Source: Candidatus Geothermarchaeota archaeon
GTDB taxonomy: Archaea; Thermoproteota; Nitrososphaeria; Geothermarchaeales; JDFR-13
Length of the DNA: 44,307 nt
Assembly: GCA_015523725.1 (NCBI GenBank)
Contig: WAJV01000101.1
Location: 1 to 44,307, forward strand
Reading direction: 5' to 3'
Under the pieces are notes generated by a model. That model searched no databases. It saw nothing but the letters and a program-made list of their open reading frames with translations, and was not told the origin of the DNA. Made by a program: the position numbers and the translations under genes. Shown piece by piece: positions 27,346-36,846 of the stretch (the stretch's first letter is position 1; every line of letters starts with the position of its first letter).

Positions 27346-27557
27346 TATTATCTATATTGAATTGGGTATACTCCGATATATTTAATGTATTTATTTGAGG
27401 ATTACAGGTTATATACATGTTCTTCGGAGAGCTATATTCCATATTTTATATCCAATAAATCGTGTCTGTTGGTTATCTACCTTACATGTAAGGGGTTTTG
27501 ATATTTACTGTAGAGTAGAATCTATTTTCTGTATTTCTTCCATAGCTGGTGTGTCTG

Positions 27558-30500
27558 ATGCCGGGTAACAAGGATGTGTCTAGTAGATGGTTTAAGTTTA
27601 GTAACGAGGATCGTGGTTGGGAATGGTTCTATAGAACTAGGTGGAGTTATGACAAGGTTGTTAGGACTAGTCATGGAGTTAATTGTTCGATGTCCTGTAG
27701 TTGGATGGTGTATGTAAAGGATGGATTGGTTGCATGGGAGTTGCAGGCCACTGATTATCCGCAGATTAATCCTGATATCCCTAATTATGAGCCCAGAGGC
27801 TGTCAGAGGGGGATTAGTACCTCTTGGTACTTGTATAGTCCCCTGAGGGTTAAGTATCCATATGTTAGGGGTATTCTTTTGGATATGTATAGGGAGGCTA
27901 GGAGTAGGGGGTTGGACCCAGTTGAGGCTTGGGCTAGTATTGTTGGGGATCCTGAGAAATCTAAAAGGTATAAGGAGGCTAGGGGGAAGGGTGGTTGGAA
28001 AAGGGTTTCTTGGGATGAGGCTGTTGAAATTATTGCTGGTGCATTAATACATACTTTAAAGAAGTATGGTCCGGATAGGATAGCTTCATTTTCTCCGATT
28101 CCAGCCATGTCGATTATTAGTTTTATATCCGGGATGAGGTTTACTAGCTTGATTGGTGGGACTGCACTAAGTTTCTACGATTGGTATAATGATTTGCCCA
28201 CGGCCTCTCCAGAGGTATATGGTGAGCAGACTGATGTACATGAGAGTGCGGATTGGTTTAATGCGACTTACTGGATAATTGCTGGAACCAGTCTACCTAC
28301 CACTAGGACCGCCGATGCCCATTTTATGAGTGAGGCTAAATATAATGGTACTAAGGTTGTGGTTGTTAGCCCTGATTTCTATGATCACGTTAAATTCGCA
28401 GATACTTGGGTTCAGATCAGGGTTGGGACGGACGCTGCGTTCGCCATTGCGATGGCTCATGTGGTTATGAAGGAGTTTCATATAGAGAGGAGGGTTGAGT
28501 CTTTCATAGATTATGTTAAGAGGTATACTAATTTGCCTTTCTTGGTTAAATTGGATAAGGTTGGTGACTATTATATTGCCGGGAGGTTCCTCAGGGCCTC
28601 CGAGGTCGATGGTTATAAGGATGTAGAGAACTCTGATTGGAAGCTTTTGGTTATGGATTCAGCATCAGGTGAGTTGAGGCTCCCTAAGGGCAGCATCGGT
28701 TTTAGATATGATAAGGTGGAGGGTAATTGGAATCTTAAGATGGAGGACCCGGTTACTGGTGAGGCGATTGACCCGAGATTGACATTATTGGGTGGTGAGG
28801 ATGATAGGTTGCCGGTGGCGTTCCCTGTTTATGATAAGACTTATTCGTTGATGCCTAGTGGTGAGGTGGGTGAGCCTTATTATGTAGTTAGGGAGGTCCC
28901 TGTTAAGAAGGTTGATACTTTGGATGGCACGGTTTATGTGACTACTGCTTATGACTTGTTGGCCGCTCATTTAGGTATATCACGTGGTTTGGGTGGAGAT
29001 TATCCAGTGGATTATAATGATCCGAAGCCATATACCCCGGCGTGGCAGGAATCGATTACTGGGGTTAGTAGGGATTTGGTTATTAAGATTGCGAGGGAGT
29101 TCGCTGAGAATGCAGAGAAGACTGGTGGTAGGAGTCTAATTATTATGGGTCCAGGTATTCAACATTGGTTCCATCAAGACCTAAATTATAGGACATATAT
29201 CCTGCTACCTATTCTGTGTGGTTGTGTAGGTAAGAATGGTGGTGGTTGGTGTCACTATGTAGGTACTGAGAAGATTAGGCCCTTGGCATCGGCTTTAGGT
29301 ATAGCATTTGCATTGGATTGGATTAGGCCGCCTAGGCATATGAATACAACTACATATTGGTATATTCATACTGGGCAGTGGAGATATGATGCGATGCTTT
29401 ATGATCCGCAGTTGACTCCGTGGGCGGATAAATTACGTAGATATAGGCATCCGGCTGATATGACTTGTCTTGCGGTTAGACTGGGTTGGCTCCCATTTTA
29501 CCCTAGTTTTAATAAGAATGTCTTTGAGATTATTAGGGAGGCGTTGGAGGCGGGTGCTAAGACGGATGAAGAGATAATAAGGTATGTTGTTGAGTCTTTG
29601 AAGGAGGGGAGGTTGAGGTTCGCCGTCGAAGATCCTGATGATCCATTCAATAGTCCGAAGGTTTTGTTTGTTTGGAGGGGGAATCTGTTAGGCACATCTA
29701 TGAGGGGTAATAATCATGCTTTTAAAACTCTATTAGGCACTCATCATGCGGTTATTGGTGAGGAGAGGGCTAAGGATTTGGTTAAAGAGATAGTGTGGAG
29801 GGATGAGGAGGCAACTGGTAAGCTTGATCTATTGGTAAATCTAGAGTTTAGGATGATTTCGACCGCTAATTATGCTGATATTGTCCTGCCTGCTGCCCAC
29901 TGGTATGAGAAGCATGACTTAACATGTGGTGATTTACATACATTTATTCATCCATTCACACCTGCTACTGATCCATATTGGGAGTGTAAACATGATTATG
30001 ATGCGTTTAAACTTATTGCTAAGAAGTTTTCTGAGTTGGCTGCTAAACACTTCGATGGTCCTGTTAAGGATCTAGTTGTACATCCATTGTTGCATGATTC
30101 TCCGATGGAGATTAGTCAGCCTTGGGGGCATATTAAGGATTGGAAGTATGGTGAGGTTGAGCCGATTCCGGGTAAGACGATGCCGAAGATGGTTATTGTG
30201 GAGAGGGATTATAGTAAAGTTTATGATATGTATGTGCGGCTTGGCCCAAAGTTTAGGGATAGTTTCGGTGCAAAGGGTATTATGTTTGCATTGGGTGAGA
30301 TTTATGATGCATTGAAGGATGATCATATTGTTGGTTCTCTCGATGGTTATCCATCGCTTGAGGATGCTAGGAAGGTGGCTGAGGCTGTCTTGCGTCTAGC
30401 GCCTGAAACTGATGGTGATGTGTCTTATAAGGCTTGGAAGACGCTTGAGAAGCGTACAGGATTAAAGTTGGCTGATTTGATTGAGCATCGGCGGCATGAG

Positions 30501-31274
30501 AAATTTACTTTTGATGATTTGGTGAGTCAGCCTAGGCGGGTTCTTACTTCACCGATGTGGTATGGTATTGAGGCTCCCGGACGGACATATACTCCATATG
30601 CTGTTAATGTGGAGAGGTTGGTGCCTTTTAGGACGCTTAGTGGGAGGCAGGAGATCTATATTGATCACGGAGTCTTTAGAGAGTTGGGTGAGAGTCTACC
30701 GATATATAAGCCGCCTATTGATCAGTTGACTACTGGTGATATGCCTAGTAAACTCCCTAGTGGTGTTAAGTTATTTAGGTATATTACTCCACATGGGAAG
30801 TGGGGTATTCACTCGACTTTCTATGATAATTTGAGGATGCAGCATTTACACAGGGGTGGCCAGAGACTATTCATTAATCCACGTGATGCGGAGGAGATTG
30901 GTGTTGATGATAATGAATGGGTTGAGGTATTTAATGGCCACGGTATTATGGTGTGTAGAGTGGCTACTAGTCATAGGGTGCCGAGGGGGATGGTTATTAT
31001 GTACCACATGTCAGAGAAGCATATCGGTGTCCCCATATCTAAGTTGGCTCAGGAGCTGGGTTGTAGTGATATCTCTGGCGGTAATACTAATGCAGTGACA
31101 AGGATTCTCCAGAATCCTGCATGGATGGTTGGTGGATATGCTCAACTGAGTTATTTCTTGAACTATTGGGGTACATGCCCTTCAGAGCGAGATATAATAG
31201 TTGCGGTTAGAAGGCTTCCACTTGCACCCGGTGAGAAGGTGACCTATGTCTCGCCTTCTAGGTTTAGGAGGTGA
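27558..31274 (+). CDS. narG: Respiratory nitrate reductase alpha subunit (Mo-bisMGD)
   Basis: About 1240 aa; [47 protein letters not shown] (Fe-S His/Cys motif), [27 protein letters not shown]; ORF track start GTG 27549, ATG 27558 preferred. Confidence 0.96.
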   Translation: [1238 protein letters not shown]

Positions 31275-32797
31275 TTGGGTTGAGGGTTGGTGTTCAAATA
31301 GGTGTAGTATTTAATTTAGATAAATGTATTGGTTGTAATACATGTACGGTTGCATGTAAGAATCTATGGACTAATAGAGATGGCTGTGAATATATGTGGT
31401 GGAATAATGTTGAATATAAACCGGGAACAGGGTATCCTAGGCAGTGGGAGAATCAGGATAGGTATAGGGGAGGTTGGGTAAAGAAGAATGGGGATCTAAA
31501 GCTGCGTATAGGTGGAAAGTTAAGTATTCTACTCAATATTTTCTGGAATCCTTATCTACCTAGGATGGAGGATTATATGGGTAAGCATGGTCCATGGACA
31601 TATACATATGAGGATCTTCACACGAATATTCCGATGACACAGACTCCTGTTGCTAGGCCTAAATCGATGATTAGTGGTGAGGAGGATATTGAGTTGGAGT
31701 GGGGTGTTAATTGGGAGGATGAGGGTGCAGGTATTAATAAGACTGCCTTGGAGGATGTGAATTTCCAGAAGTTGTCGCCTGAGGAGAGGGAGGCTTATTT
31801 ACAGTATGAACACGTTTTTTACTTCTTTGTTCCGAGGATATGTAATCACTGTTTAAATCCAGGTTGTGTAGCAGCCTGTCCAGCCGGTGCAATATATAAG
31901 CGTGAGGAGGATGGTATTGTCCTAATTGCACAGGATAAGTGTAGGGGTTGGAGGTTCTGTATATCTGGCTGTCCCTATAAAAAGGTTTATTTTAACTGGA
32001 ATACTGGTAAGTCTGAGAAATGTATATTGTGTTACCCCAAGATTGAGCATGGATTACCTCCCCAGTGTATGCATGCATGTGTAGGGAAGATTAGATATGT
32101 GGGTGTAGTTTTATACGATATGGATCGTGTCTATGAGGCGGCGTCGGCTCCTGATAAGGAGTTGGTTAGGGCTCATAGGGATATAATTCTTGATCCTTTT
32201 GATGAGGAGGTTGTTTCAGCGGCTAGGGCTGCTGGCGTTCCTGAGAGTTGGATTGAGGCGGCTCGGAAGTCGCCTTTCTATTTCTTTGTAAAGAAGTGGG
32301 AGGTGGCTTTGCCATTACATCCTGAATTTAGGACTTTACCGATGGTCTGGTATATACCTCCATTAAGCCCTATGAAGACTGTGGTTAAGGATGGTGTCTT
32401 CGATGTTTCTGGTGAATGGCTACCCGAACTAGATGATTTTAGGATACCCATTAAGTATCTTGCTAATCTATTGGCCGCTGGAAATATAGCTGAGGTTGAG
32501 AAGGCTTTGAGGAGGTTGATTGCCGTTAGAAAGTATAGGAGGAGTGTTAATGTCGATGGTGAGGCCGACGCCTCTATATTGGAGGAGGTTGGTTTGACTG
32601 TGGAGGACGCTGAACATATGTACCGTCTTCTTGCACTCGCGTTCTTTAATGAGAGGTTTGTAATTCCGACTACCCATAGGGAGAAGGTTGTCGAGCCATA
32701 TGTTGAGCAAGGCTTCAGAGGGTTCTATGAGAAGATGGTTAAGAGGATTTGGCATAAGGAGCCGTTGAGGGATTATCCTCCTGATCTGGGGAGGTGA
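31271..32797 (+). CDS. narH: Respiratory nitrate reductase beta subunit
   Basis: 508 aa; four Cys clusters including CRGWRFCISGCPYKKVYFNWNTGKSEKCILCYP; overlaps narG stop; likely start TTG 31280 after SD-like GGAGGTGA. Confidence 0.96.
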   Translation: MIGLRVGVQIGVVFNLDKCIGCNTCTVACKNLWTNRDGCEYMWWNNVEYKPGTGYPRQWENQDRYRGGWVKKNGDLKLRIGGKLSILLNIFWNPYLPRMEDYMGKHGPWTYTYEDLHTNIPMTQTPVARPKSMISGEEDIELEWGVNWEDEGAGINKTALEDVNFQKLSPEEREAYLQYEHVFYFFVPRICNHCLNPGCVAACPAGAIYKREEDGIVLIAQDKCRGWRFCISGCPYKKVYFNWNTGKSEKCILCYPKIEHGLPPQCMHACVGKIRYVGVVLYDMDRVYEAASAPDKELVRAHRDIILDPFDEEVVSAARAAGVPESWIEAARKSPFYFFVKKWEVALPLHPEFRTLPMVWYIPPLSPMKTVVKDGVFDVSGEWLPELDDFRIPIKYLANLLAAGNIAEVEKALRRLIAVRKYRRSVNVDGEADASILEEVGLTVEDAEHMYRLLALAFFNERFVIPTTHREKVVEPYVEQGFRGFYEKMVKRIWHKEPLRDYPPDLGR

Positions 32798-32802
32798 TGG
32801 CC

Positions 32803-33375
32803 ATGTCTCTTGATGTTATTGGTTTAATGTATCGGGCTTTGGCAACTCTATTATTAAATCCAGTCCATGGGGAAGCTGAGTTGAATAAGGTACGAGCCCC
32901 GCTCCTATCTCTTGGTACCGTGGAACTTGATGATGACTTGAGAAGGCTTTGGAGGGAGTTGGTTGATATTCTTCAGCTTGGATATCCTGGAGATGAGGAG
33001 GAATATATTTCCTTATTTGAGTTATCTCCAAAAGTCCCACTATATCTAAGTCACTATTATTCTGATGATCCACAGTCTAAAATATTTTTCATGCTATATC
33101 TGAAGAACCTGTATAGATTCAGTGGACTTATTCAAGTTCATGGGGAGCTCCCTGATTATCTCCCACTTATTCTAGAGTATTTGGGTCTCACTTGGAATCG
33201 AGGGCATAGGGGGATGCGGAGCCACTTTATATCCCATTATTTACTTCCATTGATAACTAATCTGAGGGAGAAGTTGGATGCCTATTCATTAAAATATACT
33301 CGTGTAATAGATCTGGCACTGGGTTTGATGAAGTATGAGTTGAGGTTTTCGGAGGAGGTGGTGCGTAGTGGCTAA
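32803..33375 (+). CDS. narJ: Nitrate reductase assembly chaperone, NarJ/TorD-like
   Basis: ORF 32794..33375; position between narH and narI; SLFELSPKVPLYLSHYYSDDP; ATG 32803 follows GGGAGGTGA. Confidence 0.85.
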   Translation: MSLDVIGLMYRALATLLLNPVHGEAELNKVRAPLLSLGTVELDDDLRRLWRELVDILQLGYPGDEEEYISLFELSPKVPLYLSHYYSDDPQSKIFFMLYLKNLYRFSGLIQVHGELPDYLPLILEYLGLTWNRGHRGMRSHFISHYLLPLITNLREKLDAYSLKYTRVIDLALGLMKYELRFSEEVVRSG

Positions 33376-34030
33376 TCCCTTTGATTTCTTATTATTTGGT
33401 GTTATGCCATATATAATGCTGGTATTGTTTATTGGTGTGCAGGCATATAGGTGGTTGGTTAGTAGGTATTTATGGACGCCTAGATCAAGCGAGGTTCTGG
33501 AGAAGAATGTGATTGGGTTGTCCTCGATCTCTATTCACTATGGTATTATTATTGTGTTTGTGGCTCATTTGTTGGGCTGGTCTACAAACTTCCTTCAAGC
33601 AACAGCATTACTTCCTTATTTCAGGTTATTGGCTACCGCAGGCGCCTTATTACTAATCTATGGTTCATTGGTGGCATTGTATAGACGCTTTACGGTGCCT
33701 TATATACGTAGAAATAGCTCTGCTGAAGATTATATTATATTATTATTCTTGTTAATTATTCCTTCATTAGGTTTGGTTAATGACTATTTACTGGGCCATT
33801 TCGGGATTTTTGTGGTCGTGTCTAAGTGGTTGACTAGTATATTTGTTGGCCAGCCGAATGTTGAGTTGATGAGTACTATTCCGATAATTAATAAGATACA
33901 TATTTTTATTGCATTGCTTTTCCTTTGTTACTGGCCTTTCACCAAGATGGCTGGGATGATTAGTTTCCCAATCACTTATCTCTGGAGGCCTTATCAAGTG
34001 ATAAGGAGGTATAGGAGGGTGTTGAAGTAG
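33368..34030 (+). CDS. narI: Respiratory nitrate reductase gamma subunit (membrane cytochrome b)
   Basis: 220 aa; about 5 TM; SIHYGIIIVFVAHLLG, NKIHIFIALLFLCYWPFTKMAGMISFPITYLWRPYQVIR. Confidence 0.92.
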   Translation: MANPFDFLLFGVMPYIMLVLFIGVQAYRWLVSRYLWTPRSSEVLEKNVIGLSSISIHYGIIIVFVAHLLGWSTNFLQATALLPYFRLLATAGALLLIYGSLVALYRRFTVPYIRRNSSAEDYIILLFLLIIPSLGLVNDYLLGHFGIFVVVSKWLTSIFVGQPNVELMSTIPIINKIHIFIALLFLCYWPFTKMAGMISFPITYLWRPYQVIRRYRRVLK

Positions 34031-34321
34031 ATGGAGATTGATTTTAATGAGGCTAGAACCATCTATAAATTACTGGTTGAGAAGGCTAGTAACGGGGGGT
34101 ATACGGCGAAGAATCTCTTGGCCTTATTGGAGGAACATTTTCCGGGGGATGTGGAGCGTCAAATGACTCTTCTTTATTTTATTTATAAGATTAGGTGGGC
34201 AATGGCGTCTAATGACCGTGGTTTGGTTAATGAATTGATTGGTGAGGCGAAGAAATATGGTGTGTATAAGTCTTTACAGACAATTTTAAACTCTATATCG
34301 TCTTATGAGGGGGTTTTATAG
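34031..34321 (+). CDS. Uncharacterised 96-aa protein inside the nar operon
   Basis: ATG directly abuts narI TAG (34028..34030); its stop lies 1 nt before the likely narK ATG (34323); helical, soluble. Confidence 0.8.
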   Translation: MEIDFNEARTIYKLLVEKASNGGYTAKNLLALLEEHFPGDVERQMTLLYFIYKIRWAMASNDRGLVNELIGEAKKYGVYKSLQTILNSISSYEGVL

Positions 34322-34322
34322 G

Positions 34323-35645
34323 ATGGTGGATAAATCTGAGTTGGTTTTGAAGTATAGGTTGAAGGGGGATCCGAAGACTGGTTTGATCGCCGCGACATTC
34401 GGGTTCTTCGTGGGATTCGCTGCTGTCGCTTTGTATGGACCTACTGCTAAGGTGTTTAAGGAGGTTATGGGTTTATCGGGGTTCCTACTTGGCCTTTTAG
34501 TTGCTGCGCCTCAATTGTCGGGGTCTCTGCTAAGGATTCCTTTTGGTGCATGGGTTGATAAGGTCGGGGGTAAGAAGCCGTTATCGACTCTTTTATTCCT
34601 ATCGATTATTGGGATGGCTGGCTTATCAACTATTCTATTATTGTACTACCCTACTAATTTGAATATTGGGCTTTATCCAGCTATATTAATCTTTGGCATA
34701 TTATCTGGATGCGGCGTTGCAACTTTCTCAGTTGGCATTCCACAGACCTCATATTGGTATCCGCAGCGGAAGCAGGGTTGGGCATTAGGTGTATATGCTG
34801 GTTTGGGTAATACTGCTCCAGGATTCTTTACAATAATACTTCCATTTGCATTGGCTGCACTTGGTTTGACTTATTCTTATGTTGCATGGCTACTCTTTCT
34901 GTTGGTTGGTACAGCTATATACTTGTTAATAGCCCATGATGCATATTATTTCCAACTGAGGGCTAAAGGTGTTCCAAGGGGAGAGAGTATCGAGGTTGCT
35001 AAAGAATTGGGGCAGGAGTTGTTTCCGTCGGGTAAGGTTACTGAGGCTCTAAAGATTTCGGCTAAGATCCCTAGGACATGGGCCCTTGTATTGCTTTACT
35101 TCACTTCTTTCGGCGGCTTCCTGGCATTAACAACATGGTTTCCAACCTATTGGTCGATTTATTATGGTTTTGATTTGAGGAGCGCCGGGATTCTTACAGC
35201 GATATTCTTTTCACTACTAGCTTCTTTCATTAGGGTTTATGGTGGGTCCTTAAGTGATAAGATGGGTGGGGAGAAGACCGCCATACTTAGCTTTGCATTG
35301 GTTATATTGGGTGCTTTCCTACTTATTATTACGGGTGCATTCATACCCAAGATATTTTATTCATCTCTACTGGGCTCTATATTCATTGGTGCTGGTATGG
35401 GTATAGCGAATGCAGCTGTGTTTAAATTAGTCCCTAAGTATGTTCCGGAGGCCGTTGGTGGAGCTTCGGGTTGGGTTGGTGGACTAGGTGCATTCGGCGG
35501 ATTCGCTGTACCACCTATACTTGGATTGTTTGTAGATGTATTTGGCTTGGTAGGCTATTCATTGGGATTCATTGTATATATCCTATTAGCCCTCATGTCG
35601 ATAGCGATATCTATTATACTTATGAAGACTTATGGTCATAGTTGA
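34323..35645 (+). CDS. narK: NarK-like MFS nitrate/nitrite transporter
   Basis: ORF 34305..35645; GLIAATFGFFVGFAAVALYGPTAKVF, RIPFGAWVDKVGGKKP, position in nar operon. Confidence 0.88.
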   Translation: MVDKSELVLKYRLKGDPKTGLIAATFGFFVGFAAVALYGPTAKVFKEVMGLSGFLLGLLVAAPQLSGSLLRIPFGAWVDKVGGKKPLSTLLFLSIIGMAGLSTILLLYYPTNLNIGLYPAILIFGILSGCGVATFSVGIPQTSYWYPQRKQGWALGVYAGLGNTAPGFFTIILPFALAALGLTYSYVAWLLFLLVGTAIYLLIAHDAYYFQLRAKGVPRGESIEVAKELGQELFPSGKVTEALKISAKIPRTWALVLLYFTSFGGFLALTTWFPTYWSIYYGFDLRSAGILTAIFFSLLASFIRVYGGSLSDKMGGEKTAILSFALVILGAFLLIITGAFIPKIFYSSLLGSIFIGAGMGIANAAVFKLVPKYVPEAVGGASGWVGGLGAFGGFAVPPILGLFVDVFGLVGYSLGFIVYILLALMSIAISIILMKTYGHS

Positions 35646-35681
35646 GATATATTTTTAGTAGGGGGTGTTATTCTGTTGAGG

Positions 35682-36182
35682 ATGCGAGGTCTACTGGCCC
35701 TGTTAACTATCATAATATTATTAGCTGCTTTCGCCTCTGTTTACGCCCAACTAAGTGAGACGGAGGCTGAACAGAAGTTTAATCAGTATGGGTGTACGAA
35801 TTGTCACACTGAGGGTGGGGCTGCGGATCCCTGGGATGAGGTTCTGGATGAGATAAGGGCTTGGGCTACTGAATATGGTTCATTGGATGAAGGGGCTAGA
35901 CACGTAGTATACTTTGGGCAATCCGGTAAATTCAATAGTTTCGATGAACTCATTAGTCAAATGGCTTCTAACGTTGGTAAGTCTCCAAGTGATATATCGG
36001 ATCTAGTCCAGTTTTTGAAGAATGAGTTTAATGAGGCTAAGGGTACTGCTGGTGGAAGTCCGTCACCCTCTCCCACGACAGGCGGGGGTGGCGGTGGTTT
36101 ACCTACCGAGTTACTCTATGCCATTATTATCTTCATTATTATCATAGTTATCATAGTTGCCTATGTGATGCGTAGGAGATGA
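35682..36182 (+). CDS. Membrane-anchored monoheme cytochrome c
   Basis: N-terminal signal peptide, single CTNCH heme motif, Gly/Pro/Ser-rich linker (GGSPSPSPTTGGGGGG), C-terminal TM then RRR. Confidence 0.9.
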   Translation: MRGLLALLTIIILLAAFASVYAQLSETEAEQKFNQYGCTNCHTEGGAADPWDEVLDEIRAWATEYGSLDEGARHVVYFGQSGKFNSFDELISQMASNVGKSPSDISDLVQFLKNEFNEAKGTAGGSPSPSPTTGGGGGGLPTELLYAIIIFIIIIVIIVAYVMRRR

Positions 36183-36246: not shown

Positions 36247-36846
36247 ATGTATATTATGAGGGTTAGGGTTCCCAGGCAGTGCTGGATAGGGCGTATAACT
36301 ACTAAATATAGAAATGTGAGTCTTAAGGTTTATTCATATGTTAAGATGGGTGATGAGACTTTAATTAATGCATATGTCTATCGATCAGGGTCTGGGGTTA
36401 TTAAGGATTTGGAGGAATTACCTTGTGTTAAAAAATTGACTGTGATTAGTGGTAAAGATGATATTTTCGCTATTAGGGTGGTGTGTAGCTGTCCATTAAG
36501 TGACGTATTTTCCAAGACAATGACTATTCCACCAGTTCCGTTTGAGGTCTCAAATGGAGTTGCTAACTGGGATTTGAGTGATTTCGATAAGGTTAATATT
36601 TTTAATATATTTAGGGATGAGGCTAAGAAGGCCGGTGGATCCATTAGGGTTGTTAAGAAGAAGGTTGATGGGTTGACTGAGAGGCAGAGGGAGGTGTTAA
36701 GGATAGCTATTTCACTAGGGTACTATGACTATCCTAGGAAGATCACATTATCTGAATTAGCGTCTAAGCTTGGTGTATCAAAGGCATCTTTATCCGAGAT
36801 GCTTATGAAGATAGAGAGTAAAGTTATTAAGAAATATTTTGAGTAA
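36247..36846 (+). CDS. HTH_10 (Bat-like) transcriptional regulator
   Basis: 199 aa; C-term LTERQREVLRIAISLGYYDYPRKITLSELASKLGVSKASLSEMLMKIESKVI. Confidence 0.92.
   Translation: MYIMRVRVPRQCWIGRITTKYRNVSLKVYSYVKMGDETLINAYVYRSGSGVIKDLEELPCVKKLTVISGKDDIFAIRVVCSCPLSDVFSKTMTIPPVPFEVSNGVANWDLSDFDKVNIFNIFRDEAKKAGGSIRVVKKKVDGLTERQREVLRIAISLGYYDYPRKITLSELASKLGVSKASLSEMLMKIESKVIKKYFE

Follow-up and report, generated by a model that had tools for sequence, protein, structure and literature searches.

In E. coli, the proximal heme (bP) of the nitrate reductase membrane subunit NarI is held by two ligands, His56 and His205 (PMC5338063). The locus considered here, from an uncultured archaeon, encodes a NarI in which the second of these is missing, and this raises the question of what becomes of the proximal heme, and of the electrons that would cross it on their way to nitrate. 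The locus lies in the window, meaning the whole stretch of 44,307 nucleotides that was analysed, and its features are collected in Table 1.

Table 1. Genes of the nar cluster and the codons of NarI residues discussed in the text (window coordinates).
Feature	Position	Strand	Evidence
narG, catalytic subunit, without Tat signal, with FS0 and Mo ligand motifs	27549..31274	+	TIGR01580, 1537.6 bits (cut-off 1084.15)
narH, Fe-S subunit, CRGWRFC ([3Fe-4S] FS4) intact	31271..32797	+	TIGR01660, 695.2 bits (cut-off 524.05)
narJ, assembly chaperone	32794..33375	+	PF02613, 31.8 bits
narI, respiratory nitrate reductase gamma subunit, 220 aa	33368..34030	+	PF02665, TIGR00351, AF2/Foldseek
Ser40-Ser41 (E. 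coli Ser39-Ser40), bP/FS4 hydrogen-bond network, retained	33485..33490	+	Alignment; role, PMC5338063
His57 (E. coli His56), remaining heme bP ligand, retained	33536..33538	+	Alignment
His67 (E. coli His66), heme bD ligand, retained	33566..33568	+	Alignment
Arg107 (E. coli Arg112), bP/FS4 hydrogen-bond network, retained	33686..33688	+	Alignment; role, PMC5338063
His178 (E. coli His187), heme bD ligand, retained	33899..33901	+	Alignment
Lys193 (conservative replacement of E. coli Arg202) and Met194, possible substitute ligands	33944..33949	+	Alignment
Gly196, codon GGG (E. coli His205, heme bP ligand, helix V)	33953..33955	+	HMM and multiple alignments
Met197, directly after the lost ligand	33956..33958	+	Alignment
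96-aa ORF directly 3' of narI, no family match	34031..34321	+	No Pfam/NCBIfam match
NarK-like nitrate/nitrite MFS transporter	34305..35645	+	PF07690, 129.6 bits
Monoheme cytochrome c (CTNCH) with membrane anchor, possible redox partner	35676..36182	+	Sequence; same-genus paralogues

The gene is the narI of a narGHJI-narK cluster, and its boundaries had been placed exactly by the first-pass annotation of this DNA. Its product scores 156.6 bits against Pfam PF02665 (Nitrate_red_gam), above the curated cut-off of 22.9, and 105.4 bits against the NCBIfam equivalog TIGR00351, falling 0.15 bits short of the cut-off of 105.55. The only PDB entries matched by phmmer are E. coli NarI chains (3egw_C and 1q16_C). 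The AF2 model (mean pLDDT 81.4) has a five-helix membrane fold, and its top Foldseek matches are all chain C of NarGHI, with 3egw_C at a TM of 0.79 and an E of 4.9e-9. The genes narG, narH, narJ and narI are contiguous on the same strand. In NarG, both a His/Cys FS0 motif and the WYNDLP...GEQTD residues around the Mo ligand can be read from the sequence, and the subunit is taken to be cytoplasmic because there is no twin-arginine signal and an in-frame stop is found just upstream of the gene. The ORF that follows narI has no counterpart in 13 other nar clusters. The NarK-like protein is 45-51% identical to NarK-like proteins adjoining other narGHI; its best NCBIfam match is the NarK family TIGR00886 (167.9 bits, below the cut-off). 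Adjoining the cluster at 36247-36846 is a transcriptional regulator of the HTH_10 family (PF04967), which is a candidate for the regulation of the nar genes. Within the order, the family of the monoheme cytochrome c is found only in this genus, with copies at G000:C8, C53 and C25, at G410:C73 and at G409:C115; the G000:C53 copy is directly upstream of a COX1 (heme-copper oxidase) gene, and other copies adjoin thioredoxin/CcdA-like genes.

What sets this NarI apart lies in helix V. The phmmer alignment is ungapped there, with PFTKMAGMISFP in the archaeal NarI facing PFSRLIHIWSVP in E. coli NarI, and Gly196 stands opposite His205. The first-pass annotation had reported this loss from an alignment to a single E. 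coli segment, and it holds in the HMM and multiple alignments, in which helix V has no gaps and no other His falls at the bP ligand site; that the lost residue is a bP ligand follows by homology (ligand table, PMC5338063). A replacement His elsewhere in NarI was considered and rejected, as the sole remaining one (His144) is in the outer loop joining helices IV and V. As had been claimed, the bD pair is intact: His67 and His178 align to E. coli His66 and His187, and a full set of ligands is thus present for bD and not for bP, which keeps only His57. In E. coli, a hydrogen-bond network made of Ser39, Ser40, Arg112 and Arg202 joins bP, FS4, and NarG (PMC5338063). The archaeal protein resembles E. 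coli NarI (1Q16 chain C) in its fold (TM 0.79), its helix order, its equivalents of His56, His66, His187, Ser39, Ser40, and Arg112, and its partners NarG, NarH, and NarJ. It differs in the replacement of His205 by Gly and of Arg202 by Lys, in an outer loop between helices II and III that is about nine residues shorter, and in an overall identity of 25%.

The loss is rare. A MAFFT alignment was made of 91 NarI, comprising the archaeal query, E. coli, nine Thermoproteota, and 80 sequences taken from species in GTDB, for the most part Bacillota and Actinomycetota. His56, His66, and His187 are each found in all 91, and His205 in 90, the exception being the protein studied here; four more NarI of the same class all have His205. 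The first-pass annotation had allowed that Gly might be standard in archaeal NarI, and this is ruled out, since His205 is present in all 13 other full-length archaeal NarI examined and Gly in none. The NarI of other Thermoproteota (L005-L012) and of the same class (L115-L118) belong to the same family and are also linked to narGHJ and mostly to narK. They share 25-36% identity with the Gly196 protein but all keep His205, whereas the latter forms a separate long branch. The comparison was widened to 155 other PF02665 proteins, including 40 added DsrM- or HdrE-like ones from the phylum. All 155 keep His205; 80 of them come from a motif-pattern search that accepted H or G at this position, which rare variants elsewhere could escape, and nearly all the remainder from searches of the phylum with whole profiles or whole proteins. 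The other ligands vary, with Phe or Thr at position 66 in 10 proteins, Asn or Tyr at 187 in four, and Leu or Tyr at 56 in four. Because members that lack a heme ligand always keep His205 and have mostly dropped the distal pair, the proximal heme looks like the indispensable one in PF02665, or so these sequences suggest. The ligand gone here is the sole one given up by no other PF02665 protein examined. Judged from its sequence, the Gly196 NarI is a real, rare, and well-defined variant of an otherwise ordinary nitrate reductase.

The explanation we favour, and to which we give about an even chance, is that heme bP is present, is bound to the protein by His57 alone, and still passes electrons on to NarH. 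NarI would then be a functional nitrate reductase membrane subunit with two b hemes, in which Gly196 would leave a His-sized gap at the helix-V face of the bP iron. We infer that this iron would be five-coordinate (probably high-spin), or would carry water or another weak ligand, within an active complex. Electrons would pass from quinol to bD (His67/His178), then to bP and the NarH [3Fe-4S] cluster, and finally to the NarG Mo site in the cytoplasm. We judge heme bP most likely to be present and conducting, since its partner ligand and its pocket have been conserved, NarG, NarH, NarJ, and NarK are all intact, the predicted fold is that of NarI, and no other family member examined has given up the proximal ligand. 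Its retention is favoured by the equivalents of Ser39, Ser40, and Arg112 and by the mild change of Arg202 to Lys; we lean towards a bound heme on account of these pocket residues, which would nevertheless prove little if the change to Gly were recent, and without a close relative the change cannot be dated. Without bP, the jump from bD to NarH would be too long for useful tunnelling. Against a retained bP, substitutions of the NarI heme ligands in E. coli are reported, by Magalon in 1997 and in later work, to lead to heme loss. There is also a slim chance that the open-site proximal heme, while relaying electrons, binds a small molecule such as nitric oxide, which would let the products of denitrification influence the flow of electrons to nitrate.

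A rather unlikely reading is that bP has been lost altogether and that NarI serves as a monoheme anchor, with NarGH poorly coupled to quinol or fed by another electron route, or with the subunit at the start of its decay. A heme ligand is indeed gone, and the absence of bP is structurally tolerated in E. coli assembly intermediates (PMC10609526); however, the protein retains His57 and the residues of the bP pocket, and none of the 155 other PF02665 proteins does without His205. As for decay, NarI is the most diverged subunit, with an average identity of 30% where other pairs of similar NarG identity reach 40%, and many otherwise conserved residues are changed (e.g., G65A). In trees, though, the window is a long branch for NarG, NarH, and NarI alike, which tells against a strong decay confined to NarI. 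The ratio of window-to-others over others is 1.65 for NarG, 1.56 for NarH, and 1.78 for NarI; this last value is only slightly above the other two, thus giving no clear sign of decay, and accelerated decay of NarI was set aside. Another electron route might be sought in the membrane-anchored cytochrome c encoded nearby, since in Thermus the dihaem NarC makes contact with NarI as a fourth subunit of Nar (PMC7694296). The Thermus NarCGHJI cluster similarly combines narGHJI with a membrane-anchored c-type cytochrome and NarK. Its NarC, however, is encoded first and its NarI is described as biheme (PMC7694296), whereas the archaeal cytochrome has a single CxxCH, is encoded last, and resembles paralogues from its own lineage. 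Electrons from an outside cytochrome c would still have to find a path through the membrane, so that the distance problem returns, and the link between this cytochrome and NarI is only a lead.

It is distinctly unlikely that bP stays six-coordinate by taking Met194, Met197, or Lys193 as a substitute ligand, with helix V locally shifted or unwound. These residues are no more than three positions from Gly196, and the AF2 model breaks the helix at residue 192, with low confidence there (block mean of 63 around Gly196). The AF2 model of a canonical NarI (L007), made as a control, breaks the helix there too and loses confidence in the same region, however, and AF2 was dropped as a test of the heme site. 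The flanking Met residues singled out by the first-pass annotation are present, but they are not special evidence: of the 155 relatives, all of which have His205, 55 have Lys at 202, 30 have Met at 203, and 12 have Met at 206. Because the same residues accompany an intact His205, the K-M-A-G-M context is no mark of compensation. A precedent exists in the HdrE of Ca. Methanotowutia and Ca. Methanoinsularis, which are likewise PF02665 b-type cytochromes with one helix-5 His missing, and in which helix 5 carries a His and a Met that are proposed as ligands (PMC9478090). These HdrE belong to heterodisulfide reductase, whereas here it is a nitrate reductase that has Gly, with Met only at -2 and +1 and neither Met at the ligand position itself.

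Highly improbable is an assembly or binning artefact leaving the sequence chimeric or wrong at the Gly196 site: the variant comes from one MAG of 113 contigs and no second genome with it was found, but GGG differs from the His codons CAT and CAC at all three bases, the frame is open through Gly196 with motifs in register on both sides, and the ribosomal protein L2 of the contig is 93% identical to that of a same-genus genome, so that the binning is sound. The downstream SFPITYLWRPY is close to the TFPITYLWRPY of L011, and this in-register C-terminal motif, together with the three-base difference and the open frame, rules out a one-base error or a frameshift. The contig also encodes rpL3 and rpL4 besides rpL2, and its gene order matches the same-genus genome from 37338 onwards; L2 and this synteny exclude a contaminant contig. 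The genomes compared are incomplete, and among them the nar cluster is absent at the equivalent place in the same-genus genome and no other genome of the order yielded a NarI. The Gly196 NarI is a singleton, with no second natural example to support it. No second NarI was found in the source MAG, which is 72.7% complete; its two other PF02665 matches are proteins of 666 and 421 aa with Fe-S cysteine motifs. The class is that of the ammonia-oxidising archaea, and AmoA is found in family f2, with none in the source genome at this completeness. In non-ammonia-oxidising Nitrososphaeria, narGHI is described as patchy and horizontally acquired, in passages on nar that do not discuss the NarI ligands (PMC10833072).

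If the enzyme works, electrons can enter NarH without bis-histidine ligation of the proximal heme, and nature has supplied the equivalent of a mutant made in the laboratory by ligand removal. If the enzyme is inactive, the operon is that of a respiratory complex caught during its uncoupling from the quinone pool. In either case the enzyme offers a clean comparison of how the ligation of a heme determines potential and rate at the point where electrons leave the membrane part of nitrate reductase.

Other departures from the usual ligand set were seen among the relatives. Three PF02665 proteins of Thermoproteota (L193, L194, and L211) have Phe at 66 and Asn at 187 with His at 56 and 205, and are apparently single-heme cytochromes that would keep the proximal heme, the reverse of the Gly196 pattern. 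L002 (G000:C6:10440-10817) and L034 (G406:C44) are two more cases, each a fusion of cytochrome b with an HdrD-like Fe-S protein. In L034 the helix-II ligand positions align to Phe and Thr, and those of L002 look alike by eye; going by these residues in L034, heme ligation would have to differ in the HdrD-like fusion. Finally, the PF02665 gene L029 (G376:C5:116454-116957) is shortened by an apparent frameshift just 5' of the His205 motif, which runs on in another frame.
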